Shown here one piece after another: positions 28,826-63,694 of a stretch of DNA of 64,000 nt (position 1 is the stretch's first letter; each line of letters opens with the position of its first letter). A program made the position numbers and the translations under genes. The stretch is taken from contig NZ_CP015405.2 of NCBI RefSeq assembly GCF_001689125.2, positions 3,788,501-3,852,500 of the forward strand, in the 5' to 3' direction. Source of the stretch: Blautia pseudococcoides (GTDB lineage: Bacteria; Bacillota; Clostridia; Lachnospirales; Lachnospiraceae). The notes under the pieces are model-generated. The model was given only the letters and a program-made list of their open reading frames with translations. It had not been told where the DNA came from and made no database searches.

Positions 28826-30166
28826 TTGAAAATAAAAGATGATTTTCTCAAAGCCCTGATTTTTATTACCTTTCCAATTGTATTGCAGAGCCTGCTTACC
28901 ACGGCTGTGGGTTCGGCTGATGTTTTAATGCTTAGTTATGTCAACCAGACATCCCTCTCTGCCGTTTCCCTTGCCAATCAGGTCCAATTTGTCCTGAATC
29001 TGGTGTATGTGGGGCTGCGGACAGGAACCACTGCCATGACTGCCCAGTATTGGGGAAAACATGACACTGCCTCCATCCGCCGGCTCACCCTGGTTGTGCT
29101 CCGTTTTTCCATGGGTGTTTCCCTGCTCTTTTTCATCCTGGCCTTTTTTATGCCCACACAGCTTATGCATATCTTTACCTCAGACCCGGATTTGATTCAA
29201 ACAGGGGCGGAATATCTGCGGATCATAGCTTTCGCCTACCTCTTTATGGGCGTGTCTCAGATTTACCTGTGTATACTGAAATCCATCCAGCAGGTGGGAA
29301 GGAGCGCTGCCATCGGTTCTGTCACACTGGCAGCCAATGTATTCTTAAATGCAGTATTTATCTTCGGTTTATTTGGATTTCCAAAACTTGGCGTAACCGG
29401 AGTTGCCATTTCTACCGTCATATCCAGGGCGGCGGAGCTGGGTCTGTGCGCGCTGGACGCAGGCCTGATCAAAAAAATACATCTTTCACGGGATGATTTT
29501 CACGATGCGGGCAGTGTTCTCACAAAGAACTTTCTCCGGTATTCCCTTCCGGTCACTGCGGAAGGCTTTGTATGGGGAGGCGCCACTGCTGTCCTCTCTG
29601 CTATCATGGGACATCTTGGCTCTGACATTGTGGCTGCCAACTCTGTGGCTTCTGTGGTACAGGGACTTGCTACTGTGGTATGTTTTGGTTTTGCGGAGGG
29701 CGGCGCTGTGCTGCTTGGCAAGGAACTGGGACAAAGTAATTATAGAAAGGCTGAGAGAGATGCCTCAAAGCTTATAAAGGCTGCGCTCATAAGCGGCCTG
29801 GCCGGTGCTGTACTCATGCTCCTTTTAAAACCCCTGGTGACAGGGATCGTCCGCCTCTCCCCCCAGGCCCTGACGGACCTGAACAACATGTATCTGCTGC
29901 TGGCCTTAAACGCTGTACTTTCCTCTTTTACCAACACTGCCATCTGCGGCATTTTCTGTGCCGGAGGGGATACGAAATTTGGTCTGTACTGTGATTTCTT
30001 TGTAATGTGGTGTTATTCCGTACTGATAGGTTTGTTCCTGGGCTTTGTCTGGAAGCTTCCTCCGGTAACGGTTTACATAATTATGAATCTGCATGAACTG
30101 GTCAAGACGCCGTTCGTCCTGAAACATTATAAGGGCAAAAAATGGCTGAAAAATATAACTATTTAA
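28826..30166 (+). CDS. MATE-family efflux protein
   Basis: A 446-residue membrane protein with twelve segments in two MATE halves (LLTTAVGSADVLMLSYV; GFAEGGAVLLGKELGQ). The start is a TTG at 28826 with AAGGAG 6 bases upstream; an earlier TTG at 28808 lacks a site. Different subtype from the MATE at 12937-14304. The O-acetyltransferase gene follows after 20 bases. Likely an exporter of small toxic or signalling compounds under the divergent AraC regulator. Confidence 0.9.
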   Translation: MKIKDDFLKALIFITFPIVLQSLLTTAVGSADVLMLSYVNQTSLSAVSLANQVQFVLNLVYVGLRTGTTAMTAQYWGKHDTASIRRLTLVVLRFSMGVSLLFFILAFFMPTQLMHIFTSDPDLIQTGAEYLRIIAFAYLFMGVSQIYLCILKSIQQVGRSAAIGSVTLAANVFLNAVFIFGLFGFPKLGVTGVAISTVISRAAELGLCALDAGLIKKIHLSRDDFHDAGSVLTKNFLRYSLPVTAEGFVWGGATAVLSAIMGHLGSDIVAANSVASVVQGLATVVCFGFAEGGAVLLGKELGQSNYRKAERDASKLIKAALISGLAGAVLMLLLKPLVTGIVRLSPQALTDLNNMYLLLALNAVLSSFTNTAICGIFCAGGDTKFGLYCDFFVMWCYSVLIGLFLGFVWKLPPVTVYIIMNLHELVKTPFVLKHYKGKKWLKNITI

Positions 30167-30186
30167 TATCAAGGAGGAAATATCCC

Positions 30187-30795
30187 ATGACAATGGAAGA
30201 ACGAAAAGCAAAAGGACTGCTGTGGACAGACACCCCCGAGGCCATGGCCGCCCAGGTAAGAGCACGGGGGCTGACCTATGATTTTAACCACACAAGACCG
30301 GAAGAGAAAGAGAAGAGAATGGCTTTACTTTCTGAGATCTTCGGCTCCTTAGGGAAAGATGTATGGATCGAACCGCCCCTTACCCTGGCATTCGGCAAAA
30401 CCGTTACGATCGGAGACAATACATACATCAACTCCAATCTGACTTTAGTGGATGACTATAAGATAACAATAGGCAGGGGCGTACTCTTTGCCCCAAATGT
30501 CACCATAAGCACAACAGGACATCCTGTGCATTATAAACTCCGCCCCCACGGGGAAATGTATTCCTTCCCTGTCACCATTGGTGACGACGTATGGATTGGA
30601 AGCGGTGTGATCATCATGCCCGGAGTTACCATTGGCGACCACTCTGTCATTGGTGCCGGAAGCATTGTGACAAAAGATATTCCCGCAGACTGCATTGCTG
30701 TGGGAAACCCATGCAAAGTGCTGCGGGAGATCACGGATGATGATTTGATTTATTATTATAAAAACCGAAGGGTGGACGAAGAAACTTCAGAATGA
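30187..30795 (+). CDS. Sugar O-acetyltransferase (maltose/galactoside acetyltransferase family)
   Basis: A 202-residue left-handed beta-helix enzyme. The N-terminal Mac domain (MTMEERKAKGLLWTDTP) is followed by hexapeptide repeats (VTIGDNTYINSNL, VTIGDDVWIGSGVII, VTIGDHSVIGAGSIV). The catalytic His lies in TGHPVH (112-115). The ATG at 30187 has AAGGAGG upstream; upstream in-frame codons overlap the MATE gene. Transfers acetyl from acetyl-CoA to sugars, probably for detoxification. Its last 65 bases overlap the 3' end of the convergent MacB-like gene. Confidence 0.92.
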   Translation: MTMEERKAKGLLWTDTPEAMAAQVRARGLTYDFNHTRPEEKEKRMALLSEIFGSLGKDVWIEPPLTLAFGKTVTIGDNTYINSNLTLVDDYKITIGRGVLFAPNVTISTTGHPVHYKLRPHGEMYSFPVTIGDDVWIGSGVIIMPGVTIGDHSVIGAGSIVTKDIPADCIAVGNPCKVLREITDDDLIYYYKNRRVDEETSE

Positions 30796-31774
30796 TCACA
30801 GAAGATACACTGCCTGCCAGCATACAGCCTGCTGTCCCAAGCAGCATATCTCTGTCACGGTAGTCAAGAGCCTGGGTTATGAGCCCTTTCATATCCCCGG
30901 CCTTTTCTGCTGCCAGTTTGGAAAAGAAAGAAAAATCCGACCAGGCTCCAGGTATATAGTCATCAGAAAAATGAAAACTCAGCAGCACTAAAAGTCCAAT
31001 CCCTCCAATCACCAGCACAGGAAAGCAAATACTGCAAAGTTCCTTTATCCAGTTCTTCCATTTTGCATTACGGTAAACACGTCGAAGCCCGGCAGCGGAC
31101 CTGGCAAATAAAACCCACAGGGGGGCCATGAGGAATAATCCCCCCAGCCCGCGGAATAAATCCCCTTCTGCTCTCACATCCGCAGTTCCGGGAAGCAGTC
31201 CCGAGAGCATCTGCTCCGCGCTGGATGCCGGCATATTTCTATACTGCACCTGTACCCTGCTGTATAAAGTACCGCTCTCTCCCTGTATGATGCAGACAGC
31301 CTCGCTGCTGTCCAAAATCCCTCTGACCTGATATTGTTTTCCTGATACTTGTATACTTCCCCCCGTTTCATCCACATTAAGCTTCTGGGCAAGTGTTTTA
31401 CTGACCACACATCCCGTGTTGTCACCATCACTCACCAGGCTTCCCCCGCACAGTTTTCCGGGCATGATCAAATTCATATTCCCCGCTGCCTTGATAAGCT
31501 GTACCTTTGCACTCTGTCCCAGAGACGTATTGACTGCGTTTACCTCCTCCGGCGCTTTCCACAGTGTCATATCCTTTATATATTTTCTTTCATCTTCTCC
31601 GGCATTCTGCCACCAGGTTTCCATCTGTTCCCTGGTCACAAATGTACTGCGGTACACAAGGCCCAGCTCCCCGGCAGCGTGTTTCCTTAAACTACTATAG
31701 CAGAAGGTTCCGATTCCCGCAAAAATTATCAAAAGAAAAACTGCCAGAAGAAAACTCATCTCTTTTTTTCTCAC
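30731..31774 (-). CDS. MacB-like membrane protein (divergent FtsX-type)
   Basis: A 347-residue protein: one membrane segment at about 7-26, an extracytoplasmic domain of about 180 residues resembling the MacB periplasmic core (CVVSKTLAQKLNV, YQVRGILDSSEAV), then three membrane segments at about 211-226, 250-268 and 309-330. This is MacB topology, but no ATPase is encoded nearby. The start appears to be a GTG overlapping the adaptor stop (GTGA); ATG 31759 is an alternative. Its last membrane segment and tail overlap the acetyltransferase 3' end antisense, so the C-terminus may be truncated or extended. Confidence 0.65.
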   Translation of the reverse strand: MRKKEMSFLLAVFLLIIFAGIGTFCYSSLRKHAAGELGLVYRSTFVTREQMETWWQNAGEDERKYIKDMTLWKAPEEVNAVNTSLGQSAKVQLIKAAGNMNLIMPGKLCGGSLVSDGDNTGCVVSKTLAQKLNVDETGGSIQVSGKQYQVRGILDSSEAVCIIQGESGTLYSRVQVQYRNMPASSAEQMLSGLLPGTADVRAEGDLFRGLGGLFLMAPLWVLFARSAAGLRRVYRNAKWKNWIKELCSICFPVLVIGGIGLLVLLSFHFSDDYIPGAWSDFSFFSKLAAEKAGDMKGLITQALDYRDRDMLLGTAGCMLAGSVSSVIILKFLRPPFGFYNNKSNHHP

Positions 31775-33237
31775 TCTAACCGTACCTGATTTCCCTCCTC
31801 TACATATTTACTGGATTCTGTTATGATAAGGCTCTTTTGGTTTATAGCTGACTTCACAGCAGCGTATTTCTCATCCTTATCCAAAACGGTTACCGGAACA
31901 GACACGGCAGTATAAACCTGCCCCAAAATACCATCCCTTACCTCTGCAGTCAGCACACATGTCTGTCCCTGCACCTGATGCAGGGCACTCAAAGGTATCA
32001 CCTGTTCATAAGAACCCGATTCTTTACTTACCTCATAAGTAAAGGGTGTACCGGTTTTCAGCTGTTTTTCGCCGACCTGTCCATACCAGACCATTCCACC
32101 CGATTCTGCCTGGCCTGCCCCTTCCTGGGATGGTGTCTCCTGAGCGGAGGCCTGTTCAAATCTCTCTGCCTTAACTTCCAAAGTCTCTGTATTTCCTGAA
32201 AACTTTATATTTATTTTATCACCTTCCTGTATTTTACCTACATCCGCCTGGTCAATAATTCCTTTTACCTCTGCGGCCTGTGATGCAATGATGATCTGTT
32301 CTGTCCCAGCAGTCACAGTGCCTTCTGTCACACCTGCAGATTGGAAAATGCCCGAGGATGCGGCGCTTACAATCCCCTCCACATTCTGAATATCTGTCAG
32401 TTTTTTAAGCGCTGCTTCCGCGCCTTCAATATCTACCTGAACCCCCTCCACAGTAAGAGAATTGGATCTTTGCTTTTTTTCTTCGTTCTGCTGCGCGTTT
32501 GCCTCATTTTGGCTGGCTAAATTATACTGCTCCACCGCCTGATTATAAGAAATGGCCTGGCTGTTTAAAGTATCTGCAGCACTCTGCATTTTATCTTTTG
32601 CCGCCTGTACCTCCTGCTCCCACTGTTCATATTCCCCGGCCCCGGAAGAATTGCCACTCTGGGATGTTTCCCCCGCTGTATCAGAACCTTCTCCCTGGTC
32701 ACCAGACAGGCCGCTGTCCTGTGCCTGACCGCTGTCCGCAGCCGGAGGATTATTCGCCAAACTCTCATACTCCGCTGCCGCCTGGTCATAATCGGCCTGG
32801 GCCTGGTCCAGCAGTATTTCCGCGTTGTTCAAGGCAATCTGTGCCAGAGCCGTCTCGGGCGTGCGGGCATCCTCCTGGCCTGCCAGCTTCTGCTGTTCAA
32901 GCTGCAGTTTCAGCTTTTCTATCTCCCTGTTCTTTTCCTCTATCTTCTCTGCCAGGTAATCCATATCCAACTGTACCAGCGCCTGTCCTGCCTCCACTGC
33001 GGTCTGGGGTTTCACAAGAACTTTCTTCACCTTCTGTCCCTCCGGCAGAGACTGGCTGTACTGCTCTTTTGCCGTTACCGTTCCGCTGCCTGTCACAAGC
33101 TGGGTCAGCACCCCTTTCCCCACCTTGGTAGTCTTTACCTTGGCAACCGTTATGGAGGAGGCTGCCCTTGCAGCCACAGTACAGCACAGCATCAGCACTA
33201 AAAAATATATCACTGCTTTTCCTGCTTTTTTTTTCAT
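31771..33237 (-). CDS. HlyD/MacA-type membrane fusion (adaptor) protein
   Basis: A 488-residue adaptor. A membrane anchor or signal at 8-27, a first half-lipoyl segment near 45-92 (GSGTVTAKEQYSQSL), a long coiled coil from about 93 to 275 interrupted by a Ser/Gly/Asp-rich insert, the second half-lipoyl segment (EGIVSAASSGIF), then beta-barrel domains. The ATG at 33237 has AAAGGAG in front and lies 2 bases after the MalG-type permease stop. Adaptors join exporters, so its place after sugar-importer genes is odd. Probably partners the MacB-like protein. Confidence 0.85.
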   Translation of the reverse strand: MKKKAGKAVIYFLVLMLCCTVAARAASSITVAKVKTTKVGKGVLTQLVTGSGTVTAKEQYSQSLPEGQKVKKVLVKPQTAVEAGQALVQLDMDYLAEKIEEKNREIEKLKLQLEQQKLAGQEDARTPETALAQIALNNAEILLDQAQADYDQAAAEYESLANNPPAADSGQAQDSGLSGDQGEGSDTAGETSQSGNSSGAGEYEQWEQEVQAAKDKMQSAADTLNSQAISYNQAVEQYNLASQNEANAQQNEEKKQRSNSLTVEGVQVDIEGAEAALKKLTDIQNVEGIVSAASSGIFQSAGVTEGTVTAGTEQIIIASQAAEVKGIIDQADVGKIQEGDKINIKFSGNTETLEVKAERFEQASAQETPSQEGAGQAESGGMVWYGQVGEKQLKTGTPFTYEVSKESGSYEQVIPLSALHQVQGQTCVLTAEVRDGILGQVYTAVSVPVTVLDKDEKYAAVKSAINQKSLIITESSKYVEEGNQVRLE

Positions 33238-33239
33238 AA

Positions 33240-34085
33240 CTACTCCTTTAATCCCGATGCCACGATCCCCTGCTCCAAATACTCCTGTCCCCATAAAAAT
33301 ATAAGCACTGCCGGCAGCATCATCACGATTGACGCCGCAAAGGAACTCCCCACCTGGTCCGTAGTGATCTGCGGAAGGTAGAGGGAAAGAGGCAGCTTTG
33401 ATTTTGTCTTCAGAAATGTCATGGGTGCCTCGATGGCATTCCAGTATTCCAGAAAATTAAGCAGCACTGACGCCATAATGCCGGGCCGTCCCAGCGGCAC
33501 TCCCACATGCAGAAAAATTTTAAACTGTCCGGCCCCGTCCACCATGGCTGCCTCCACAAGGGCATCCGGGATGGAGCGGAAGAACTTCTGCATGATAAAT
33601 ACGGGAAATGCCGAGAAAATCCCAGGCAGGATAATTGCCAGATGGGTATCCATAAGAGACAGTCCCGAAAGTACCAGATAACTGGATACCATGGTAACCT
33701 GAAAAGGCATGATCATCAAAATCATATATAATAAAAATAATATCCGGCGTCCCCGGAAGCGGTACCTCCCAAACGCCCACGCTGCCGGCATACCGACCAG
33801 CACCTGCCCGATCAGAATAGGCACCACCTGCTTAACGGAATTCCAGAACATAACAAAGAAACCCGGCGAATCCAGCAGCAGTTCCACATATGGCTTCAGG
33901 GTTGGATAAACCGGAAGCAGTTCCAAACGGACCGCTTCCGTACCTCCTCCCAATACCCCGCCGTAAGATATTTTCAGCTCCTCAGCCCCCATAAATGAAT
34001 TGGGGAACATGACAAGCACAGGTACCCAGAACAGAAGGCAGAATATGGTCAGCACTGCTGTTCGCACTGTCTTTTTCTTATTCAC
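33240..34085 (-). CDS. Sugar ABC permease, MalG type
   Basis: A 281-residue permease with six membrane segments and the EAA loop LVEAAMVDGAGQFKIFLHV near residues 175-195. The frame is open to 34103 (ATG), but AGGAGAACC directly before GTG 34085 makes that start likelier (VNKKKTVRTAV); it overlaps the MalF-type gene by 8 bases. Partner of the next gene. No ATPase in the cluster. Confidence 0.87.
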   Translation of the reverse strand: MNKKKTVRTAVLTIFCLLFWVPVLVMFPNSFMGAEELKISYGGVLGGGTEAVRLELLPVYPTLKPYVELLLDSPGFFVMFWNSVKQVVPILIGQVLVGMPAAWAFGRYRFRGRRILFLLYMILMIMPFQVTMVSSYLVLSGLSLMDTHLAIILPGIFSAFPVFIMQKFFRSIPDALVEAAMVDGAGQFKIFLHVGVPLGRPGIMASVLLNFLEYWNAIEAPMTFLKTKSKLPLSLYLPQITTDQVGSSFAASIVMMLPAVLIFLWGQEYLEQGIVASGLKE

Positions 34086-34983
34086 GGTTCTCCTGCCTTT
34101 CATTCCACCATTCCACCAATACCAGGATCACACTCACTGCAATTGCCATGAAAACTGCTGCTGCACTCATTTTTTGTATATCCAGCTTTGTAAACCAATT
34201 GTTGAACAAATGCTGCAGCATATAAATACTCTCATGGGGATAATCCCCTGCGATCAGATACGCCTCCCGGAACACCCGGAACGCATTCACAAAGGACAGG
34301 ACCCCGATGAGAAAAACACTGCTTTTCATCTGCGGCAGCGTAATATACCGAAAGCACTGAAATGCACCTGCGCCGCTGACTCTGGCTGCCTCATACTGCT
34401 CCTCCCCAATAGCGGACAGAGCTGCGATCCACAGCACAATATCATACCCCATATTCTTCCATAAGTAAGAACCCACCAAGATCCAAAAAGCGTACCCCGT
34501 ATTCATCCAGTCCTGCCCTGTCAGATGCAGTGTTTCCAAAATCTGATTGACCACACCTTTCTGGTCAAATAAAAGTTTCCAGAAGACAACAACGGACGCC
34601 ACAGGGATTGCCATGGGCAGGAGAAATCCCGCCCGCAGTATCCTGGCAAACCCGGTGATACTGTTCAAGAAAATGGCTGCCAGAAACGACAGGACCAAAA
34701 GCAAAGGCAGACACATGCCGAGAAACCGCACTGTATTGCCAAGTGCCTGCCTAAAGGCACTGTTGTCCAGCACCTCCCTGTAATTATCAAGTCCCACAAA
34801 CAGTCCTCCCACTGCCTGGAAAAAGGAGCGTCGTATCACATCCCCGAAAGGCAGAAGGACAAAGACCAGCAGTCCCAGCAGACTGGGTGCCAGAAATGCG
34901 TATGCTGTTTTATTCTGACAGGTAGGTGTCCATTTTCTGGACAATGGCTTTTGCCGCCTCCGCAGATGTCTCTGTACCCTCAT
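34078..34983 (-). CDS. Sugar ABC permease, MalF type
   Basis: A permease with six membrane segments and the EAA loop EEQYEAARVSGAGAFQCFRY near residues 205-225 of this start. The start is uncertain because the frame overlaps the end of the binding-protein gene: ATG 34983 has GGAG 7 bases before it and is chosen (301 residues, 74-base overlap); a TTG near 34937 would give a shorter N-terminus. Forms the channel with the MalG-type permease. Confidence 0.82.
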   Translation of the reverse strand: MRVQRHLRRRQKPLSRKWTPTCQNKTAYAFLAPSLLGLLVFVLLPFGDVIRRSFFQAVGGLFVGLDNYREVLDNSAFRQALGNTVRFLGMCLPLLLVLSFLAAIFLNSITGFARILRAGFLLPMAIPVASVVVFWKLLFDQKGVVNQILETLHLTGQDWMNTGYAFWILVGSYLWKNMGYDIVLWIAALSAIGEEQYEAARVSGAGAFQCFRYITLPQMKSSVFLIGVLSFVNAFRVFREAYLIAGDYPHESIYMLQHLFNNWFTKLDIQKMSAAAVFMAIAVSVILVLVEWWNERQENRE

Positions 34984-37165
34984 AACATTTCTCCATTTCC
35001 TCCAAGACAGTGTCATACAGTGTTTGGTTTGGAATAAACGGATCATCCAGTGTGCGGATCAGATCCAGATAGGTCTGCACCGTCTGTCCGTCAGCATTCC
35101 CATACTCTTCCATGACTTCCTCCCCTGTTTTTGGGTCTCTGTAGGTGCTGGCCGTCGTATCCTTCTGTGCTATGTCCGTGTCTGCATATGCTATCATATT
35201 ATTGAACGCACTCTCCGTAACAGGAAAACCGTCCCAGGTCTCGCTGCCCTGCACATCATCAGACATCAGCGCTTTGATAAACAGTTCAGCCGTTTCCTGC
35301 TGATTGGTTGACGCATTGATCCCTGCTATTGTATATGGGACATAGTAATTTTTGACTGCCTTTGGTTCGATTCCCGCTTTCTTGATACTATAGACCGGAT
35401 ACATCATGCTGCTGTATCCCTGCAGCTCATATAACGACACGGTCCCGTCTCTATAGCCGGTAAAATAGCCTGATGAGAAATATATGTTCCGATCCTCCGT
35501 GTCTTCAGGATCATATCCATAAGCTTCTTCCAGACTCTGTGTATCCATGTTTTTGCAAATCTGCAGATAGTCATCTATAAACTCTGCCATCTTCTCTTCA
35601 TCAATACTTCCATCCTCTTTTACAAGTTCCTCATACATGACGGCAAGCAAAGTCTTCGCAGCATTGGTGTGTACAGTATCTCCCAGTACCGGCGCCTCCG
35701 GATTTTCACCCAGGTAAGAGGTCAACGCCTCAATACTCTCAAGAGCCTTGCTGCTGTCATCCTTGGAAGCCATGAGCGGCAGTCCCATGCGGGCCGGAAG
35801 TCCGTAAACCTTTCCATCTCTTTCCATAGCCCCTGCCACATTCTCCAGCATACCGCCGTCTTTTACCAGTTCCTCTCTAAGGCTGCTGATGTCAGCGAGA
35901 ACTCCTTTTTCTATATAGGAATCCACCGGCAGACTATCTAAAATTAACACATCGGCTCCTTTTCCGCCCAAAAGTTCTGTATTCAGATTGCGGATATCAT
36001 CGGAGCTTGGTTTTTCGTATTCTCCCACCGCATAGCTGTAATTTACCCTTACATCAGGATTCTGGGTCTGGAACAGACGGATGGCCTGCTGTACGGTCTT
36101 ATTTTCTTTTAGTCCATAGACCGTAAGCGTGTTATCCGCTGAGACCGGCATATCTTTTTTGTAAGTATAGCGAGCCAAGAACAGGCCGCCTTTGTCATAC
36201 TCATTGTATAAGGCATAAAGCTCATCATCATCCCCACTAAAGAATGATATAACGCCGGCTCCCGTTGCCCCCATCTTTCCATAGGAACCGTCAAGCAGGG
36301 TCTCCATAAGATCCCCTGTTTCCTGGAAACGTACAATCCCGCCTTCTGTCAGACAGTACCATGCTCCGTCAGCACCGGGTGCAAGATTAAAGGATTCTCC
36401 TTTTTTTGTAAGCGCTGCACTGCCTGTCTCTGAAAAATCGTCTGTGTTATAAAAAGTAATACTTTTTCCGTCTTTTGCTGTCACAGCCAACCTGTTCTTT
36501 GAGGTGCTGATCGTGTTCTGGAAGTTTGACATCATTGGCTCCATATCAGCAGAGAAGACTTTTTCTCCGTCCTTATAGAGTTCGGCTTGTCCTGAGCTTC
36601 CGTTTGCCACACACAGACTGCCGTCTGCCAGTGCATCCACATCCGTCACCAAGACAGCAAGCCCATTTTCATCAGCCTTTGTCAGATTCTCAGGAGTAAC
36701 ATCTTCCCATGTATCTCCATCTTGGATATTCTTAAATATATGCCATCCGTAAGGCATCTCATCCGTTGGGTTTGTCGGTGCCCCCATTGCGTACACATTC
36801 CCATCCTGCCCATATTCCAGATGATTCAGCAAAAAATCAGATGCCATAGCAGTCAAGCCTGCGTCCTCCTGCGCCTCTGACCATTGTCCATCCTGATATT
36901 GATAGGAATAATATTTTGTACCCGAATCCTGGCTGCCGCCTGAAGTATACAAATGGATGATCCCATCCTTTTTATATGCGCCCAGAGGGGTTTCCCCGTC
37001 CTGTACAGGCGGCTTTAAGTCCTCCTCCACATAGCGCCCCATGGCTTTTTCCTGGTCATCTTTCTTTCCGTTACCTGTTTCTTTTTTTTGGTCTCCGCAT
37101 CCGGACATCAGTCCTGCAGCCAGTACAAGGCCCATCCCTGCGGCCAGTATTTTTCTCCATTTCAT
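34910..37165 (-). CDS. Lipoprotein fusing a beta-propeller-like domain to a sugar-binding domain
   Basis: A 751-residue secreted lipoprotein, far longer than usual binding proteins (about 430). Lipobox LMSGC puts the lipid on Cys23. Residues about 55-370 show repeated blade-like units (HLEYGQDGNVYAMG, DVDALADGSLCVANG, GADGAWYCLTEGG, GDDDELYALYNEYD) that suggest a beta-propeller. Residues about 375-751 are a family-1 solute-binding domain (TVQQAIRLFQTQNPDVRVNY, GADVLILDSLPVDSYI, KVYGLPARMG). First gene of the cluster running to 30731, divergent from the regulator at 37419. Ligand unknown; perhaps a complex glycan or glycopeptide. Confidence 0.85.
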   Translation of the reverse strand: MKWRKILAAGMGLVLAAGLMSGCGDQKKETGNGKKDDQEKAMGRYVEEDLKPPVQDGETPLGAYKKDGIIHLYTSGGSQDSGTKYYSYQYQDGQWSEAQEDAGLTAMASDFLLNHLEYGQDGNVYAMGAPTNPTDEMPYGWHIFKNIQDGDTWEDVTPENLTKADENGLAVLVTDVDALADGSLCVANGSSGQAELYKDGEKVFSADMEPMMSNFQNTISTSKNRLAVTAKDGKSITFYNTDDFSETGSAALTKKGESFNLAPGADGAWYCLTEGGIVRFQETGDLMETLLDGSYGKMGATGAGVISFFSGDDDELYALYNEYDKGGLFLARYTYKKDMPVSADNTLTVYGLKENKTVQQAIRLFQTQNPDVRVNYSYAVGEYEKPSSDDIRNLNTELLGGKGADVLILDSLPVDSYIEKGVLADISSLREELVKDGGMLENVAGAMERDGKVYGLPARMGLPLMASKDDSSKALESIEALTSYLGENPEAPVLGDTVHTNAAKTLLAVMYEELVKEDGSIDEEKMAEFIDDYLQICKNMDTQSLEEAYGYDPEDTEDRNIYFSSGYFTGYRDGTVSLYELQGYSSMMYPVYSIKKAGIEPKAVKNYYVPYTIAGINASTNQQETAELFIKALMSDDVQGSETWDGFPVTESAFNNMIAYADTDIAQKDTTASTYRDPKTGEEVMEEYGNADGQTVQTYLDLIRTLDDPFIPNQTLYDTVLEEMEKCYEGTETSAEAAKAIVQKMDTYLSE

Positions 37166-37203
37166 TTATGATAACTCCTCTCTGCCGGAGCTTCCGGCCC
37201 CTA

Positions 37204-37292
37204 CATCTACCAGAATATCAGGAAAATCTCAAAAAGACTTTTAAGAACTGCAGAAATTTTTAAAGATTTTTTTGAGAAATGAATGGTATAAT
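37204..37292. promoter_or_regulatory. Divergent promoter region with inverted repeat
   Basis: Minus strand: TTGAGA (37227-37232), 17 bases, TAGATG, a weak promoter for the lipoprotein gene. Plus strand: extended -10 TGGTATAAT (37284-37292) for the regulator, without a good -35. TCTCAAAAA (37227-37235) and TTTTTGAGA (37269-37277) form an inverted repeat covering both -35 regions, a likely site for the OmpR-type regulator. Confidence 0.55.
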
Positions 37293-37418
37293 AATGATAT
37301 TGTTGGCAGAACTGCGCTTTTTGCGGATCTGTGAATAGTAACATACTAATTGCAGTAAGATAAAAATGTCTGTGATAATGGAAAATGATTGCTGCAATAT
37401 AGAAAGGAATTATATTTA

Positions 37419-38099
37419 ATGCGGATTTTATTGATAGAGGATGACCAGGAACTTTGCCATGTGCTGAAAATTTCTTTAGAAAAAGCGGGATACCAGACAG
37501 ATATCTGCCTGACCGGAACAGACGCGCTCTATTATGCCCTGCAGCCTGTCTATAACTTGATCATTTTAGACCGTATGCTGCCGGGAATGGATGGGCTGTC
37601 TCTTTTAAAACTCATAAGGAGCAATGAGATCACAACCCCTGTCATCCTGGCAACAGCCATAGATGCGGTGCCGGAGAGGATTGCAGGGCTGGACTGCGGA
37701 GCCGATGATTATATTGTAAAGCCATATGATATTGAAGAACTGATGGCCCGTATCCGTGCACTGGTCAGACGCCCCCAGCCGATTGAAGACCACCGGAATA
37801 TGGAATACGGGGATTTGGTATTCAATACCACAACATTGAAACTGACCTGCGGGCCCCATACCCAGCAGCTCTCCCGCAGGGAATCCATGCTGATGGAATA
37901 TTTTATGCAGAACCCGGAGCAGACCATTTCCAGGCAAATGCTGTATTCCAGGGTATGGGGACCTGACGGGGAAGTGGAGGACGGCAATCTGGATACTTAT
38001 ATTTATTATCTCCGCAAAATACTGAAAAAACTGAAAAGCCGTGTCCAGGTCGCAACCGCACACGGCATCGGCTACCGATTGGAGTGTCCGCCATGCTGA
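37419..38099 (+). CDS. Response regulator, OmpR family
   Basis: A 226-residue regulator. Receiver domain with E7-D8-D9, phosphoacceptor D51 (LIILDRMLPGMDG), T79 and K101 (IVKPYD); winged-helix domain with LSRRESMLMEYFM and LDTYIYYLRKILKKLK. The ATG at 37419 has AAAGGAA upstream; a TTG 30 bases earlier is in frame but lacks a site. It overlaps the kinase gene by 7 bases. Divergent from the lipoprotein-transporter cluster and the likely controller of it. Confidence 0.93.
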   Translation: MRILLIEDDQELCHVLKISLEKAGYQTDICLTGTDALYYALQPVYNLIILDRMLPGMDGLSLLKLIRSNEITTPVILATAIDAVPERIAGLDCGADDYIVKPYDIEELMARIRALVRRPQPIEDHRNMEYGDLVFNTTTLKLTCGPHTQQLSRRESMLMEYFMQNPEQTISRQMLYSRVWGPDGEVEDGNLDTYIYYLRKILKKLKSRVQVATAHGIGYRLECPPC

Positions 38100-39409
38100 C
38101 TACCTTCCGCAGACGTCTGACCCTGCTCTTTGCAGGAACCACCAGCCTGATCCTGACTGTCATTTTCCTGATCGTCTGGGTATACCAGAACCATCTGTAC
38201 CAGGCACAGCAGGAAAACCTGTTTCAGAACTATCTGCTGGAACTCTCCAATAAACTGGAGGCAGATATCAATTTCTCTGACAACTGGCTCGCTGTGATGG
38301 AAGCAGACAATAAGCTGATCATTCATATAGAAGAAAATAAGATCCCCCTGTTTTTTCCCGGTTCCTGGGAACCGGCCACCAGCCGCCATACACTGATCGA
38401 AAAGGCGAGGAAACAGGCACTGGACGAAAACGTGGATATCAGCCGTCCTCCGCTCTCCAACTCCATGCAGAAGACTTCCGTAATGCATATCCAGGGGGAA
38501 GAGGGGGACACCTACCAGGCAGTTGTCATACAGATGCCCAGCGGCAGCGTTTACAAATCCCTGGTGCTGCTGCAGGATATCACGGAACTGGGGAAAAAGA
38601 GTCTTTCCCTTGGAGTCTTCTTTTTACTGCTGGATCTGGCTGGATTCGCGGCCCTTTATCTGACTGCCCGGCTGATTCTCGGACGTGCTATGAAGCCTAT
38701 TGCAGAATACCAGCAGAGACAGACTGATTTTATATCCGCCGCCTCCCATGAACTCCGTTCTCCCCTGTCTGTCATCCAGACCAGCGCCTCTGTCATAGAG
38801 GAGAATCCGGAGCAGGCAGCCTCCATGTCAGGCATTATACGTTGGGAATGCAGCCGGGCGGGAAAACTCATCCGTGACCTGCTGCTTCTGGCCTCCTCAG
38901 AATCGGGAACCCTCACTAAAAAACTGGAGGAAGTGGAGGCGGATGCCCTGCTGCTCAGGCTCTTTGAATCCTTCGAGACTGTATGCCGGCAAAAGGGCAT
39001 TTCCCTGCAGCTTCATATGCCGGATGACATTCTGCCCCCTGTTCTCTCTGATTCGGCATATTTATACCAGTTATTAGCCATCCTGCTGGAAAATGCCATG
39101 GCTTACGGAAAGCCCCTGTCAGGGGAGAAACCTGTGATCGAGCTTGCAGCCTGCCAGTCAGGACACCATATCACCTTATCCGTCACAGATCATGGACCAG
39201 GCATCCCGGATGACCAAAAAGAGGCTGTATTCCGCCGTTTTTACAAAACAGACCCCTCCCGCAGCAAGAAAGAACACTTCGGACTGGGGCTGTCCATTGC
39301 CAGTGAACTGGCCCATCAGTTAAAATGCCGTCTAATACTGCTGGATACTCCCGGCGGCGGCGCATGTTTTCAGATAAAACTCACAAAAACGGGAACCGGC
39401 AATTCCTAA
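38093..39409 (+). CDS. Sensor histidine kinase, two-transmembrane type
   Basis: A 438-residue kinase. Membrane segments at about 9-31 and 170-195 enclose an extracytoplasmic sensor of about 140 residues. The HisKA motif AASHELRSPLSVIQT has His219; the ATPase domain has DHGPGIPDDQ and HFGLGLSIA. ATG 38093 has GGAG 8 bases upstream; a GTG at 38084 is directly next to that site and less likely. Translated together with the regulator. Confidence 0.93.
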   Translation: MLTTFRRRLTLLFAGTTSLILTVIFLIVWVYQNHLYQAQQENLFQNYLLELSNKLEADINFSDNWLAVMEADNKLIIHIEENKIPLFFPGSWEPATSRHTLIEKARKQALDENVDISRPPLSNSMQKTSVMHIQGEEGDTYQAVVIQMPSGSVYKSLVLLQDITELGKKSLSLGVFFLLLDLAGFAALYLTARLILGRAMKPIAEYQQRQTDFISAASHELRSPLSVIQTSASVIEENPEQAASMSGIIRWECSRAGKLIRDLLLLASSESGTLTKKLEEVEADALLLRLFESFETVCRQKGISLQLHMPDDILPPVLSDSAYLYQLLAILLENAMAYGKPLSGEKPVIELAACQSGHHITLSVTDHGPGIPDDQKEAVFRRFYKTDPSRSKKEHFGLGLSIASELAHQLKCRLILLDTPGGGACFQIKLTKTGTGNS

Positions 39410-40297: not shown

Positions 40298-42370
40298 TCA
40301 TAATACCATCTTCTCCATCCGCCGCAATGACACCCTGTACATCACATACATAAACACTGCCACACCCAGGATCAGCCCCAGTTCCATTACAAATAACCGC
40401 AGTTCTCCCGCATCCAGATGCATGTCATTGAAATAAATCAGCAGCATAGAAAACACCAGCACAATAACACTCCCCGCTGCTGTCGGGTACGTGAAAATTC
40501 TGCGCAGTTGTCTGCGTATGACTCTTTCTATATAATTTCTGTCCGCCCCCAGTCTCCCCAGGTCGCCAAAAAGCTGCCGGTTGTCCATTGCAATGGTCAC
40601 ACTCCTCACGTAGGTCATTACCCCCACAGCGGCAAGGGAAATAACAGCTATATATACGCTCAGAAGCACAAAGACAGCCACCATCTGCATAGCATCCGCC
40701 TTGACCAGGACTTTAAAAAAAGGTGCGTATTTCCAGTCTCCCATAAGGTCCGGATTATCCTCTGAAAGCCCTGCCTTCCCACTGTAAAAATATCCGGTCC
40801 CCTGCTCCACGGCTCGCTCCTCCTCATATGCATCATACAATGCCACATGGTCAGACAGCTCCCCCGCATGAGCAATATATTCATGTTTCAGTTCCCTGGC
40901 AAAATCATATGTGCTGTATACATCCCCCACACAAAAGAAAACCAGTTTCTCTCTGTCCGGCCCGTCAGACGCTCCTGCGAAATTATGGTAATCCTCATCG
41001 GAAAGGATAAAGGTAAAAGGATCACTGGTTTCCGTCAAATTGTCAAACTCCTCTGTTCCCTTATATGACAGTTTTCTGTCCTCCACCCTCAGAAGACAGT
41101 GGGGCTTTACCCATATGGAGGGATGGTATCCGCTGGGAACAATGGTTTTATATTCCCCGGATCTCACTACTGTCTTTCTTCCTGCGATCCTGGAAAAATC
41201 AGAGGCAGAAACAAACGAAACCAGCTTTCTGGAATTTAAATCCACATATTTTCCTCTGTCCGTCAAATCCCGCATTTTATAATCCGTCAGCAGCACAACT
41301 GCCTCTGCCTCCTCATAAGCCTCTATATCCACTTCATATTCCTGAGCAAGTTCAAATATATCATCCTTTGTGACCTGCTTCTCCCCGGAAGGATAATGCA
41401 TGGAGTAATCGTACGGGGCCCCTTCTCCTCCGGCATAGGCAGAGCGGTAATACATGGCTCCCCAGAATGCCGATAAAAGGAGCACGAAAACCAGCAGCGT
41501 GATCACACACATATTTTTCGTGGTCTGCCTGGCTGTAAAACGCATCAGATTAGAAGACACAATATTTTTATAATACTTCTCCGGATTTTTCCCCCTTCCT
41601 GTGCGCCCCACCGCACTCAGCATAAAAAGATAAAGCCCAACAGCGCTGATACCGTAGGTCACATTCCAAAAGGAAGGCATGACAAACAGAAATACCCTCA
41701 TGCAGACTGCCGGTACTGCCATAGCCAGCACCAGGCCTGCAATTATAAGAAAAATACCAACTTTTCCTGTCCAGGGCTTGACCTCTCTTACCATCTCTGT
41801 TTTCCTCTGTGCATTCAATATTTCTATAATATTTACCCGCCGGATAAAACGTATCCCCAAAAAAAAGATACAGAGAACCAGGAAAAGCGCAAATACAATA
41901 CCGACCCCCAGTCCCACCGGGCCCACCCGGTATTTCATCCCCGCCGAAGTGATGATAAGTGCCTCAAATCCGTTCCATATAAGGTAGGAAACCGGAACAG
42001 CCAGCACGATCCCGCAGACCGCGTATCTTATGATCACAATTCCCACCTCCCGGGCAAGGCACTTTCCAAGTTTTCTTTTTTGCTCCCCCAGAGCCAAAAA
42101 TACACCTATTTCCCTGCTCTTGTGACGAAAAAACAAATTTGCCCCATAGAATGTAAAAACCGTACATCCCAAAAATGTGACCCCCATCATGAGCCACGAT
42201 AACTTTCTTGTGTCTCCCCCTTGTGGCAGCAGTTCCTGTACAGTGGGAGAAAAATACATAAATGTAAAGGAAGTCACCAGCAGCACAGAAAGAAAGATGC
42301 ATATGCCTAAAAGGGTATACTGGTTTTTATTTTTACGCCTCAGTTTGCCCATAATTTTATTCATTGTCAT
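40298..42370 (-). CDS. ABC exporter permease, BceB type
   Basis: A 690-residue membrane protein with ten segments: about 17-38, 55-77, 105-130, 148-172, 203-225, 228-252, 288-308, then a large extracytoplasmic domain of about 230 residues, and three more near the end (570-595, 620-645, 655-675). This is BceB/VraG layout, in which the big loop recognises antimicrobial peptides. The two FtsX regions are present (REIGVFLALGEQKRK; DNRQLFGDLGRLGADRNYI). Start ATG 42370 overlaps the ATPase gene by 14 bases with GGGAGGGG upstream. Likely confers resistance to a cell-wall-active peptide. Confidence 0.9.
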   Translation of the reverse strand: MTMNKIMGKLRRKNKNQYTLLGICIFLSVLLVTSFTFMYFSPTVQELLPQGGDTRKLSWLMMGVTFLGCTVFTFYGANLFFRHKSREIGVFLALGEQKRKLGKCLAREVGIVIIRYAVCGIVLAVPVSYLIWNGFEALIITSAGMKYRVGPVGLGVGIVFALFLVLCIFFLGIRFIRRVNIIEILNAQRKTEMVREVKPWTGKVGIFLIIAGLVLAMAVPAVCMRVFLFVMPSFWNVTYGISAVGLYLFMLSAVGRTGRGKNPEKYYKNIVSSNLMRFTARQTTKNMCVITLLVFVLLLSAFWGAMYYRSAYAGGEGAPYDYSMHYPSGEKQVTKDDIFELAQEYEVDIEAYEEAEAVVLLTDYKMRDLTDRGKYVDLNSRKLVSFVSASDFSRIAGRKTVVRSGEYKTIVPSGYHPSIWVKPHCLLRVEDRKLSYKGTEEFDNLTETSDPFTFILSDEDYHNFAGASDGPDREKLVFFCVGDVYSTYDFARELKHEYIAHAGELSDHVALYDAYEEERAVEQGTGYFYSGKAGLSEDNPDLMGDWKYAPFFKVLVKADAMQMVAVFVLLSVYIAVISLAAVGVMTYVRSVTIAMDNRQLFGDLGRLGADRNYIERVIRRQLRRIFTYPTAAGSVIVLVFSMLLIYFNDMHLDAGELRLFVMELGLILGVAVFMYVMYRVSLRRMEKMVL

Positions 42371-43112
42371 TTAATTCCCCTCCCAGTACACGGATCGTAT
42401 CCAAAAGCTCATCCATAAATACTCTCCTGTTTCCCCTGTTTTCCAGAATCCCATTTACCTGCCCGTCCTTCAGAACTACTACCCGGTCGCAGAAGGAGGC
42501 CGCATAGCTGTCATGTGTCACCATAAATATGGTGGCCTGCATAGTATCCCTGGCTTTCAGAAACGCATCAATCACCGCCCTGCAGGATTTGCTGTCCAGG
42601 TTTCCCGTGGGCTCATCCGCCAGGATCACCAGAGGATGGTTCATAAGTGCCCTTGCCACTGCAGTCCGTTGTTTTTCGCCTCCTGATATCTCAGCGGGAT
42701 ACTTCTGCATAATCTTATCAATCCCGAATATCCGGCATATATTTTCCGCCTTGGATTCCATCTGGGCTATAGGCCGCTCATCAATGATCTGAGGAAGACA
42801 GATATTCTCAAACACCGTCAGACCGTCCAGCAGCATAAAATCCTGGAAGACAAAACTCATCTTCCTGTTTCTCACCTTTGCCAGGTCATTTTCATTCAAT
42901 GCGGAGATATCATCCCCTCCCAGAAGAACTGCCCCCTCATCAAAGGGAATAAACCTTGAGATACAGTTCAGAAGTGTTGTCTTCCCGCTCCCGGAGGGCC
43001 CCATGACAGCCACGAATTCCCCCTTATCCACTTCTAATGATATATCCCTGAGAACCGGATATACCTGGTCCCCGGTTCTGTAACTTTTTGATAAATGTTC
43101 CACCTGCAGCAT
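42357..43112 (-). CDS. ABC exporter ATPase, BceA type
   Basis: A 251-residue ATPase. Walker A GPSGSGKTT (38-46), signature ISGGEKQR (142-149) and Walker B LVILADEP (161-168), followed by TGNLDSKS. The C-terminal extension after the H-loop (THDSYAASFCDRVVVLKDG) is usual for BceA. Immediately upstream of its permease. Its promoter faces the broken LytTR two-component genes, 235 bases apart. Confidence 0.93.
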   Translation of the reverse strand: MLQVEHLSKSYRTGDQVYPVLRDISLEVDKGEFVAVMGPSGSGKTTLLNCISRFIPFDEGAVLLGGDDISALNENDLAKVRNRKMSFVFQDFMLLDGLTVFENICLPQIIDERPIAQMESKAENICRIFGIDKIMQKYPAEISGGEKQRTAVARALMNHPLVILADEPTGNLDSKSCRAVIDAFLKARDTMQATIFMVTHDSYAASFCDRVVVLKDGQVNGILENRGNRRVFMDELLDTIRVLGGELNDNE

Positions 43113-55985: not shown

Positions 55986-58900
55986 TTATTCTTCTGTCAG
56001 TTCAGCTTCCTCTTCCTCCTCGGAAAGTTCCACCTCATCAACCTCATCCGTCAGCCGGACAACTTCTTCTTCATCCTCCGCCGGAAGTTCATCCAGGGCC
56101 TCAGCAAGTTCAAAGTCATCGTCAATCTCCTCTTCATCCTCAATCAGATCTGTATCAAGTTTGATATTGGAGTAGCACTTCATACCTGTTCCTGCAGGAA
56201 TCAGCTTACCGATGATAACGTTCTCTTTCAGACCGATCAGCGGGTCAATCTTGCCCTTAATAGCAGCTTCTGTCAGAACCTTTGTAGTCTCCTGGAAGGA
56301 AGCTGCGGACAGGAAGGAATTGGTTGCCAGGGATGCCTTAGTGATACCAAGCATAACCTGTTTTCCATCTGCCGGCTCTTTGCCCTCTTCAACCAGTTTT
56401 TCGTTCTCTTCCTGGTAGTCCAGAACGTCAACCAGGGTACCCGGCAGGAATTCTGTATCTCCATTGTCCTCAATGCGGATCTTCTTCAGCATCTGGCGAA
56501 CGATAACCTCGATATGCTTATCATTGATCTCAACACCCTGCAGACGGTATACACGCTGTACTTCCTGGATCATATAATCCTGAACAGCACGGACACCCTT
56601 GATCTTCAGAATGTCATGAGGATTCACGCTGCCTTCTGTCAGCTCATCACCAGCCTCCAGAAACTGACCGTCCTGAACCTTAATACGGGAACCGTAGGGG
56701 ATCAGGTAAGTCTTGGAATTGCCATCCTCATTGTCTGTGACAATGATCTCACGTTTTTTCTTTGTATCCTTTAATGTTGCAACACCTTTGATCTCCGTGA
56801 TAATAGCAAGACCTTTTGGCTTTCTTGCCTCAAAAAGCTCCTCCACACGGGGAAGACCCTGTGTGATATCACCGCCGGCCACACCACCGGTATGGAAGGT
56901 ACGCATGGTAAGCTGTGTACCTGGTTCACCGATAGACTGGGCTGCAATGATACCTACGGATTCACCTACCTGAACAGGCTCACCTGTAGCCATGTTGGCG
57001 CCGTAACACTTGGCGCAGACACCGATGTGGCATTTACATGTGAGGATGGTACGGATCTTAACGGAATCAAACGGCTTGCCCTTTTCATTCACACCTTCGT
57101 TTACCACGCGGGCAGCACGTCTCGGGGTGATCATATGGTTTGCTTTTACAATTACATCGCCTTTGGCGTTCTTGATGGTCTCACAGGAGAAACGTCCTGT
57201 AATACGCTCCTGAAGGCTTTCGATCTCTTCTTTTCCGTCCATGAAGGCTTTTACCCACATACCCGGAATCTCGCCTCTGTCTTCACAGCAGTCCACTTCG
57301 CGGACGATCAGGTCCTGGGAAACGTCAACCAGACGTCTTGTCAGGTAACCGGAGTCAGCGGTACGCAGAGCTGTATCGGACAGACCTTTACGGGCACCAT
57401 GGGCGGACATGAAGTATTCCAGTACGTCCAGACCCTCACGGAAGTTGGACTTGATGGGCAGCTCGATGGTGTGACCTGTTGTATCGGCCATCAGACCACG
57501 CATACCAGCAAGCTGTTTGATCTGCTTATCGGAACCACGGGCACCGGAGTCAGCCATCATGAAGATGTTGTTGTACTTATCAAGTCCTGTCAGCAGAGCC
57601 TTGGTAAGCTCATCATCCGTCTTCTTCCATGTTTCAACTACTTCTTTATATCTCTCTTCCTCCGTGATCAGACCACGTTTGAAGTTCTTGGTGATAAGGT
57701 CAACCGTATCCTGTGCCTTTTGGATCATCTCAGGCTTCTGAGGCGGCACAGTCATATCGGAGATTGATACGGTCATGGCAGCTCTGGTTGAGTATTTGTA
57801 ACCTGTGGCCTTGATCTTATCCAGCACCTCTGCGGTTCTGGTGGCCCCATGGGTGTTGATCACTTTTTCCAGAATCTGTTTTAACTGTTTCTTGCCTACC
57901 AGGAAATCAACTTCCAGTTTCAGTTCATAGCCCGGTACAGAACGGTCCACAAATCCCAAATCCTGAGGAATGATCTCATTGAACAGGAAACGTCCCAGTG
58001 TGGAATCCACAGTGTCCTGCATTACCGTGCCGTCCGGCAGGGTCTTGCTGCAGAATACATGGATCCTGGTCTGCAGTGTGATATATCCGTTCTCATAAGC
58101 CAGAATGGCTTCATTTACACTCTTAAAGTGTTTGCCTTCACCCTTAACTCCCGGCCTCTCCTGTGTCAGATAGTAGATACCGAGAACCATATCCTGTGAG
58201 GGAACAGCCACCGGACCACCGTCAGACGGTTTCAGCAGGTTGTTTGGAGACAGGAGCAGGAAACGGCACTCTGCCTGAGCCTCAACGGACAGGGGAAGGT
58301 GTACAGCCATCTGGTCACCATCAAAATCAGCGTTGAACGCAGTACAAACAAGGGGATGCAGTTTGATTGCTTTACCTTCAACCAGAATCGGTTCAAATGC
58401 CTGGATACCCAGACGATGCAGGGTAGGAGCACGGTTTAACATGACCGGATGCTCTTTGATAACATCTTCCAGTACATCCCATACTTCCGGTTCCAGCTTC
58501 TCCACCATCTTCTTGGCATTCTTAATGTTGTGGGCAGTGCCGTTGCTTACCAGCTCTTTCATAACGAAAGGCTTAAACAGCTCGATCGCCATCTCTTTTG
58601 GCAGACCGCACTGGAAAATCTTCAGTTCAGGTCCAACCACGATAACGGAACGTCCTGAATAGTCCACTCGCTTGCCCAGAAGGTTCTGACGGAAACGTCC
58701 TGATTTACCTTTCAGCATATCGGAAAGGGATTTCAGTGCACGGTTACCCGGTCCTGTGACCGGACGGCCACGGCGTCCGTTGTCGATCAGAGCATCTACC
58801 GCCTCCTGGAGCATTCTCTTTTCATTGCGGACAATGATGTCAGGAGCGCCCAGTTCAAGCAGCCTTTTCAGACGGTTATTTCTGTTGATGATCCTTCTAT

Positions 58901-59699
58901 ATAAATCATTTAAGTCAGATGTGGCGAAACGTCCGCCATCTAGCTGTACCATAGGACGAAGGTCCGGCGGAATGACAGGTACCACTGTCATGATCATCCA
59001 CTCCGGACGGTTCCCGGATTCACGGAAGGCTTCCACAACCTCAAGACGTTTTACAATACGGGCGCGTTTCTGGCCTGTAGAATCCTTGAGGCCTGCTTTC
59101 AGCTCTTTGGATTCTCTTTCCAGGTCAATGGCCTCCAGCAGTTCCATAATGGACTCCGCACCCATTCCTACCCGGAATGCGCCGTCGCCGTATTTTTCTC
59201 TGGCATCCTGGAACTCTTTCTCTGTCAGCACTTGTTTGTACTGCAGTTCCGTTGTTCCTGCATCCAGGACAATATAGTTGGCAAAGTACAGGACCTTTTC
59301 CAGTGACCTTGGGGAAAGGTCCAGGATCAGTCCCATTCTGGAGGGGATCCCCTTAAAGTACCAGATATGGGAGACCGGTGCTGCCAGTTCAATATGGCCC
59401 ATACGCTCCCTGCGGACACTGGCTTTTGTCACTTCAACGCCGCATCGGTCGCAGACAACGCCTTTATAACGGATCTTCTTGTATTTGCCGCAGTGACATT
59501 CCCAGTCCTTGCTCGGTCCGAAGATCCTTTCGCAGAACAGGCCGTCTTTTTCCGGTTTTAAGGTTCTATAGTTAATGGTTTCCGGTTTTTTAACCTCGCC
59601 TCTGGACCAGTCCCGGATTTTCTCCGGGGACGCCAATCCAATCTTGATGGCATCAAAGGTCATTGGCTGATATGCCTCTTTATTTGCTGTTTCTGGCAT
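55986..59699 (-). CDS. rpoC: RNA polymerase beta' subunit
   Basis: A 1237-residue subunit. Zinc site [20 protein letters not shown] (about 69-88), catalytic [12 protein letters not shown] (about 454-465) with the three Asp of the active site, and the Rim/trigger-loop region [10 protein letters not shown] onwards are intact. Ends in a long acidic tail ([20 protein letters not shown]). GGAAAGGAG precedes the ATG, 15 bases after rpoB. Confidence 0.98.
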
Positions 59700-59714
59700 T
59701 GTGGACTCCTTTCC

Positions 59715-62700: not shown

Positions 62701-63557
62701 CTCAGCAGCAGCTTTTTGTTGAATTTGTAACGGCCTACTTTTGCCAGGTCGTAACGTCTTGGGTCAAAGAACATACTGGTGATCAGGCTCTCTGCGCTCT
62801 CCACAGCCAGCGGCTCACCCGGACGGATTTTTTTGTATAACTCCAGAAGACCTTCCTGATAACTCTCAGCAGTGTCTTTTGTAAAGCTGGCTAATATCTT
62901 CGGTTCCTCACCGAATAACTCTATAATTTCTGCATTCGTGCCAATACCTAAGGCACGGATCAAAACTGTAATAGGGACTTTTCTGGTTCTGTCTACACGT
63001 ACATAGAATACGTCATTGGAGTCGGTCTCATATTCCAGCCAGGCACCCCTGTTCGGGATAACGGTACAGGAATAAAGGGTTTTGCCCAGTTTATCATGAG
63101 CGATAGAGTAATAAATCCCCGGAGAACGTACAAGCTGGCTGACAATAACTCGTTCAGCGCCGTTGATCACGAAGGTACCGGTTGCTGTCATTAACGGCAG
63201 ATCACCCATGAAGATTTCATGTTCACTGATTTCGTCATTCTCTCTGTTGTATAATTTTACCCTTACTTTCAAAGGAGCTGCAAAAGTAGCATCCCTCTCC
63301 TTGCATTCCTCGATGGAGTATTTTACCTCATCTTCACACAAAGTAAAGTCAACAAATTCCAAGCTTAATTTACCGCTGTAATCGGCGATTGGAGAGATAT
63401 CTTCAAAAACTTCTTTAAGACCTTCGTCCAGAAACCACTGGTAAGAGTCTTTCTGTACTTCAATGAGGTTCGGCATTTCCAGTACCTCTTTCTGGCGCTG
63501 GTAGGTCATTCTCATGCTCTTACCGGTTGTAATGGGACGGATTCTATTTTTCTCCAT
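59715..63557 (-). CDS. rpoB: RNA polymerase beta subunit
   Basis: A 1280-residue subunit. The rifampicin pocket region [20 protein letters not shown] and following [11 protein letters not shown] (about residues 484-514) carries wild-type residues at the common resistance positions. The frame opens at 63647, but [17 protein letters not shown] at 63557 is the usual start, with AGGGGTG upstream. The C-terminus is acidic and ends DDDTLVEE. Transcribed with rpoC from the promoter at 63695. Confidence 0.97.
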
Positions 63558-63694
63558 TGACGTTTCACCCCTTGTATGTTTTAATTTTATTATGCTTATA
63601 CCTGAGCCTCCCAAAGGAAGTTTCCCAATTACAAAGTTTAATTTCATTCATAAATAGAGAGACAGGCATAACTTGCCATAATAGTGCATTTCTC

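Follow-up and report, generated by a model that had tools for sequence, protein, structure and literature searches.

A conserved gene set joining MalF/MalG-type permeases with an HlyD-type adaptor and a MacB-like protein in Bacillota

The DNA analyzed here, hereafter the window, is a stretch of 64,000 nucleotides of Blautia pseudococcoides (contig NZ_CP015405.2, positions 3,788,501 to 3,852,500), in which a minus-strand unit encodes a lipoprotein with a solute-binding domain, MalF- and MalG-type permeases of an ATP-binding cassette (ABC) importer, an HlyD/MacA-type adaptor and a MacB-like membrane protein, with a response regulator and a sensor kinase encoded divergently (Table 1). This set of solute-binding protein, MalF, MalG, HlyD and MacB-like protein is kept together over many genera, and it is often accompanied by a conserved putative regulator box and by genes of an OmpR-type two-component system. 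A first-pass annotation of the window had located these seven genes and described the unit as a composite importer and exporter-adaptor cluster devoid of an ATPase; all the gene places were borne out, and no ATPase gene lies inside the transporter unit, whose genes overlap or almost do so. Both permeases are confirmed by Pfam matches to BPD_transp_1 (1e-16 and 1e-14) and score in NCBIfam as UgpE/MalG- and UgpA-type, all under the equivalog cut-offs, while the divergent pair carries response-regulator and kinase domains. As judged by eye, plausible ribosome-binding sites precede the genes of the lipoprotein, MalF (start at 34983) and HlyD (33237), these two starts and that of the regulator at 37419 being the ones with the better site.

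Table 1. Features of the transporter unit and of the divergent regulatory genes, in positions of the 64,000-nucleotide window (TM, transmembrane helix).
Feature	Position	Strand	Remarks
751-residue lipoprotein	34910..37165	(-)	signal/lipobox; all-beta (propeller-like) domain ~42-340; solute-binding domain 345-750
MalF/UgpA-type permease	34078..35046	(-)	conserved EAA-type loop; likely start 34983
MalG/UgpE-type permease	33240..34103	(-)	conserved EAA-type loop
HlyD/MacA-type adaptor	31771..33294	(-)	single N-terminal membrane helix; likely start 33237
MacB-like membrane protein	30731..31774	(-)	TM1, MacB periplasmic core domain, TM2-TM4; without ATPase domain or FtsX signature
OmpR-type response regulator	open reading frame from 37389; likely 37419..38099	(+)	divergent from lipoprotein operon
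Sensor histidine kinase	38084..39409	(+)	two membrane helices (hydropathy)
Putative regulator box	37260..37277	(-)	direct repeat TCTCAAAA..TCTTTAA, 11-bp period; faces lipoprotein operon
Second putative regulator box	37227..37244	(+)	opposed orientation; faces regulator gene

The conservation of the five-gene set was assessed from both of its halves. A search with the MacB-like protein in 299 genomes of the family gave a match in 30, that of the window included, and in the 34 loci around the matches, the window excluded, HlyD was found in 34, MalG in 33, the solute-binding protein in 33 and MalF in 32, the sole locus without MalG stopping at a contig edge. When the search was made with a MalG alignment, at least 545 relatives were obtained, of which the best-scoring 80 were kept, so that they are not a random sample; in these 80 loci HlyD was called in 80, MalF in 78, the MacB-like protein in 75, the solute-binding protein in 71, the regulator in 49, the kinase in 48 and a MalK-type ATPase in nine. 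The two sets are not independent, since 14 of the 80 loci had already been found in the first one, and outside of it HlyD was called in 66 of 66 loci and the MacB-like protein in 61 of 66. Three of the five loci without a MacB-like gene stop at a contig edge right there, and two (L079 and L109) do not. The exact set was found in 47 of the 80 loci; the relatives with a named source are mostly Lachnospiraceae, with some Oscillospiraceae, the nearest named one being Blautia parvula. In a quick permease tree all the systems form one clade relative to four long-branched ordinary importers (Shimodaira-Hasegawa-like approximate likelihood ratio test, SH-aLRT, 100), and pairwise distances of HlyD and MacB-like proteins are correlated (r=0.85, 75 loci), compared with only 0.46 for MalF and MalG, a value that may be blurred by alternative copies and saturation. 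Had the adaptor and MacB-like genes always occurred with an ATPase of their own and never with these permeases, a chance junction would have been indicated; the searches came out in favor of one conserved system, usually with its own regulators. A fortuitous or misannotated neighborhood of unrelated genes, which the low scores of single window proteins might suggest, is hardly conceivable in view of a gene set conserved in dozens of genomes, in different genera and in distant families, and was rejected. The composite system and its architectures are well supported, and a literature search on the combination of an importer with an adaptor and a MacB-like protein found no description.

With regard to the adaptor and the MacB-like protein, Pfam calls are weak in the window, namely MacB_PCD at 8e-5 and 23.4 bits, under the 27-bit cut-off, and HlyD_2 at 0.002, under cut-off, as is the TIGR01843 match of the adaptor (1e-8). 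Their annotated identities nevertheless hold, backed by relatives and models. The adaptor of locus L177 exceeds the cut-offs of HlyD_D23 and HlyD_3 and has MacA as its best solved match; for the pair, the best solved relatives are MacA, MacB and YknZ. MacB_PCD was detected in 52 of 69 MacB-like members and the FtsX signature (PF02687) in none of the 69, while an unrelated FtsX protein of the window (40298-42370) matches PF02687 at 9e-10. In the model, TM2 and TM3 of the MacB-like protein are linked by a four-residue turn (237-240), with longer loops in some relatives; a coupling helix is reported at this place for the MacAB/YknXYZ type of system (PMC5985334). A MacB fold lacking both the ATPase and the FtsX signature of MacB is well supported. 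A role in anti-phage defence was considered but not adopted, as PADLOC gave just one weak match (CARF-LolE, 4e-5, residues 111-162).

The lipoprotein had been described as a beta-propeller-like domain fused to a solute-binding domain, and a structure prediction had been recommended. The model does show two domains, of which the first (~42-340) is predicted to be all-beta and the second (345-750) to be a solute-binding domain, also recognized by fold search, as expected for the extracytoplasmic component of a type I importer; no Pfam family, including those of solute-binding proteins, matched significantly. The propeller itself rests on strand count and on weak sequence matches to NHL/YncE propellers, and the fold search, whose result list was taken up by the binding domain, gave no propeller match.

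The inverted repeat that had been noted in the promoter gap was found at 37227-37277, and is explained by two copies of an 11-bp-spaced direct repeat, placed in opposed orientation within that gap. A loose form of the repeat occurs in 28 of 35 homologous divergent gaps, against a mean of 0.7 and a maximum of 4 in dinucleotide shuffles, and under a strict definition it is present in 15 of 35, where shuffles gave at most 1. Two of 37 regions had been dropped as empty. The loci are related, and the sequences used for testing the motif were also those that yielded it, so that the magnitude of the excess should be given more weight than a probability value. Both the conserved box and the presence of two-component genes in the fetched flank of 48-49 of the 80 loci would suit a sensing module, in which ligand binding by the transporter complex would be relayed to its kinase, in the manner of the flux-sensing Bce systems. 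We regard this as quite improbable, since the kinase of the window can sense directly, with ~140 residues between its two membrane helices, and since transporters of this kind are served by kinases of more than one family, VanS among them.

Three architectures of the system were distinguished. The first, that of the window, has no ATPase gene. In the second, the order is solute-binding protein, HlyD, MacB-like, MalF, MalG and MalK, and it is found in Hungatella hathewayi, in [Clostridium] symbiosum and in a second copy in the genome of the window (L032, G000:C1:1857500-1876500), which also has a VanR-type regulator and a VanS-like kinase; both second-type loci that were scanned, this copy included, encode an additional small protein that matches DUF5666 below threshold. 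The third, MalF-MalG-HlyD-MacB-MalK followed by the solute-binding protein, occurs in Desulforamulus, Desulfitobacterium, Desulfofarcimen and kin (hereafter the Desulfo-group), where MalK was called in 13 of 13 loci (L177-L180, L217-L225). Two of them (L222 and L224) are truncated at the end of a contig, and L225 (G734:C56) is a decayed copy with the MacB-like and MalF-type genes in pieces. The binding protein of this type is an ordinary one of ~460 residues, without the extra all-beta domain. In a sample of the phylum, 9 of 398 genomes gave a match at 1e-60, and at nine places outside the window's own genome HlyD was present in seven and the MacB-like protein in eight; in one order, a match was found in 11 of 113 genomes. 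The MacB-like protein of one Desulfo-group genome (G448) shares 83-84% identity with that of nine other genomes of several families. Such high identity, combined with so few matches in the order (11 of 113 genomes), suggests horizontal transfer.

The relatives also offer an explanation for the lack of an ATPase in the window unit. Both permeases keep the EAA-type loop to which a MalK-type ATPase docks (consensus of the EAAxxDGAG type). Elsewhere in the genome, at G000:C1:4716433-4717533, an orphan MalK-type ATPase with ABC_tran, OB_MalK and TOBE_2 domains is encoded. It shares 50% identity with MalK from the second copy, and no BPD_transp_1 match is listed within 80 kb of it. An orphan MsmX-like ATPase of this kind is present in all nine Lachnospiraceae genomes tested, the best match being 74-91% identical and without a permease within 1.5 kb, and in Desulforamulus the system's own MalK is the only protein that matches at 1e-80. 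In the permease tree, the sister group of the main clade has MalK in six of seven rows. Shared MsmX ATPases that power several importers are reported as established in Firmicutes (PMC7658222). Because relatives carry MalK in the operon, the missing ATPase is probably supplied in trans by the orphan MsmX-like protein. An exporter ATPase hidden nearby was considered and rejected: no MacB/LolD-type ATPase at 200 bits or more was found in the 80 loci, the weaker LolD-type matches in their flanks reaching ~40-124 bits, and the ABC ATPase and FtsX-type permease (251 and 690 residues) at 40298-43112 form a separate unit beyond the kinase gene. At the other end, a maltose-acetyltransferase-like hexapeptide protein (30142-30795) is encoded convergently with the MacB-like gene, with a 65-base overlap of the 3' ends, and further away (55986-63647) lies a tandem pair of very long open reading frames of 1237 and 1310 residues.

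The van-type context of the relatives is well supported and is most evident in the third architecture. Nine of the 13 loci (L177, L178, L180, L217-L221 and L223) have VanR- and VanS-like genes upstream of the transporter and on its strand, and in seven of these nine at most a carboxypeptidase-like and a VanZ-like gene intervene before the transporter, while in L180 and L221 ~3.5 kb separates VanS from MalF. Of the other four loci, two are the ones cut by contig ends and two (L179 and L225) have other regulators. At the curated NCBIfam cut-offs, VanS was recognized in nine of nine scanned proteins (400-412 bits of 400) and VanR in eight of eight (421-430 of 350), the VanR of L221 being cut and not among them. 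A D-Ala-D-Ala carboxypeptidase-like gene lies between VanS and MalF in eight of the 13 loci; the two that were scanned reach 92 and 88 bits at best, well short of the named cut-offs. In L178, assigned to D. chlororespirans, genes for VanX (398 bits of 320), MurF (403 of 289), a FemX-like protein (94 of 500), VanW (473 of 365), VanI (749 of 700), VanR and VanS are followed on one strand by MalF-MalG-HlyD-MacB-MalK and the solute-binding protein. These van genes are the published vanI cluster, as far as it is described in PMC4229326. Likewise, VanG (572 of 495) and VanT (599 of 460) are above cut-off in L223, whereas the VanG-like ligases of L217 and L221 are under it and cover only part of the model. 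VanZ-like proteins were found in L177 (139 of 375 bits) and, by similarity, in L219 and L178, the partial open reading frame of the latter matching no NCBIfam family at 1e-10, and weak matches of ~60 bits in L049, L141, L144 and L062. In the second copy of the window's genome, the regulator is at the cut-off of VanR-ABDEGLN (350.3 of 350) and the kinase under that of VanS (361.9 of 400), as is the VanS-like kinase of H. hathewayi. In G798, G799 and G800 the best VanS-like kinase matches hold stop codons within the aligned stretch, that of G799 being near its second-type copy. Downstream of a window-type system of Anaerocolumna aminovalerica (L040, the same as L084) lies an alanine/serine racemase-like gene, which scores 275 bits against the VanT-like protein encoded in L223, and a link to peptidoglycan in Lachnospiraceae is possible.

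The van linkage and the relationship of the pair with MacA, MacB and YknZ, the last being reported as part of a toxin efflux pump (PMC4887032), are also what an efflux or surface-clearing pump would display, in which the HlyD/MacB-like pair moves antimicrobials outward with either a retooled MalFG or a MacB-type ATPase recruited in trans. The pair is accompanied by importer-type permeases and, in 71 of the 80 loci, by a solute-binding protein, and the absence of a MacB-type ATPase at 200 bits or more from those 80 loci and of the FtsX signature from all 69 MacB-like members likewise makes such a pump unlikely.

The label of sugar importer given in the first-pass annotation is inherited from permease homology; the context points to cell-envelope or glycopeptide stress instead. 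Among 116 of 127 flanking proteins, one per side and locus, no catabolic or glycan-degrading family recurs within the 25 most frequent of 127 families, the top one being MatE with four members. In the Desulfo-group, the next-best MalG-type matches after the system itself score 46 bits in G448, 47 in G641 and 105 and 77 in G500, and D. acetoxidans reportedly does not utilize glucose, fructose, maltose or cellobiose, though glycolysis is encoded (PMC3035247). Taken together, these observations argue for a role in the envelope and not in sugar feeding. A nutritional oligosaccharide importer, with an acquired adaptor module that draws large glycans through the thick wall, would fit the homology of permeases, binding protein and ATPase to sugar systems and the 56 further MalG-type matches in the genome of the window. 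This explanation is doubtful, given the absence of a glycan-degrading family from the 25 most frequent ones in the flanks, the maintenance of the system in Desulfo-group bacteria that otherwise have hardly any importers of this kind or none, and the VanRS linkage.

Based on homology and genomic context, we hypothesize that the unit in the window belongs to a hybrid type of ABC system, widespread in Bacillota and so far undescribed, of which it represents one lineage, a reading to which we give a probability of about 0.5. MalF and MalG would be powered by a MalK-type ATPase, in the window type by the orphan MsmX-like one in trans, and the HlyD and MacB-like proteins would form a MacA/MacB-like extracytoplasmic collar without a MacB-type motor, from which a substrate that is bulky or attached to the wall would be handed to the binding protein and to the MalFG channel. 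Inward transport is likelier than outward. As relatives sit in vancomycin-resistance-type clusters of soil bacteria, the system probably works at the cell envelope, and it may serve to maintain the envelope or to protect it from molecules that target the wall (glycopeptides, lipid II binders, peptidoglycan fragments) rather than to supply carbon. More tentatively, the importer engine (MalFGK2 and binding protein) may be physically joined to a motorless MacA/MacB-like tunnel. The two would make up a separate class of ABC machine for the uptake or clearance of wall-active molecules, glycopeptides or peptidoglycan fragments for instance, and a part of van-type responses that has not been listed so far. 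Several observations weigh against the hybrid envelope system. The regulator of the window is not VanR (109 of 350 bits) and its kinase is not VanS (78 of 400), so that its van link runs via related transporters alone, and the VanRS-linked copies of Lachnospiraceae are not basal in the permease tree. The binding domain looks like sugar-binding proteins, and ordinary sugar-type importer genes lie within ~10 kb in four places (L035, L044/L105, L050 and L096), which also speaks for the oligosaccharide importer. The MalG alignment was built from loci found via the MacB-like protein, and the 80 loci are its best scorers. In addition, L184, with a distant permease (208 bits), has neither HlyD nor a MacB-like gene, although its contig ends after another ~1.5 kb, and L183 lacks an HlyD call, the place of this gene being filled by a long open reading frame on the opposite strand.

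If correct, the proposed system would join two ABC architectures usually kept apart, and would place MacB-like proteins in a system without an ATPase of their own. It would also add a conserved transport operon to van-type clusters, of which one published description stops just before the operon, and would mean that a set of gut genes with the appearance of sugar ABC transporters does something else.

In comparison with known systems, the present one resembles the type I (CUT1) importers powered by MsmX or MalK in its lipoprotein binding protein, in its two BPD_transp_1 permeases with ATPase-docking loops and in a MalK-type ATPase encoded in the operon or, as a candidate in the window type, as an orphan. 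It differs from them in that almost all loci examined also encode an HlyD adaptor and a MacB-like protein, in the extra all-beta domain of the window-type binding protein, and in the presence of regulators, van-type or otherwise OmpR-type, instead of catabolic genes. With MacAB, YknWXYZ and the MacAB-like systems of S. pneumoniae (type VII) it shares an HlyD/MacA-type adaptor beside a protein with a MacB periplasmic core domain and four membrane helices. In contrast to these, neither a fused or adjacent MacB-type ATPase nor the signature of the FtsX-type membrane domain is found, the modeled TM2-TM3 turn has four residues, and the pair accompanies importer permeases and a binding protein instead. 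As for the vanI cluster of Desulfitobacterium, its published description stops at vanS, and the words transporter, ABC and HlyD are absent from the main text of PMC4229326, whereas in L178 its genes lead straight into the transporter operon.

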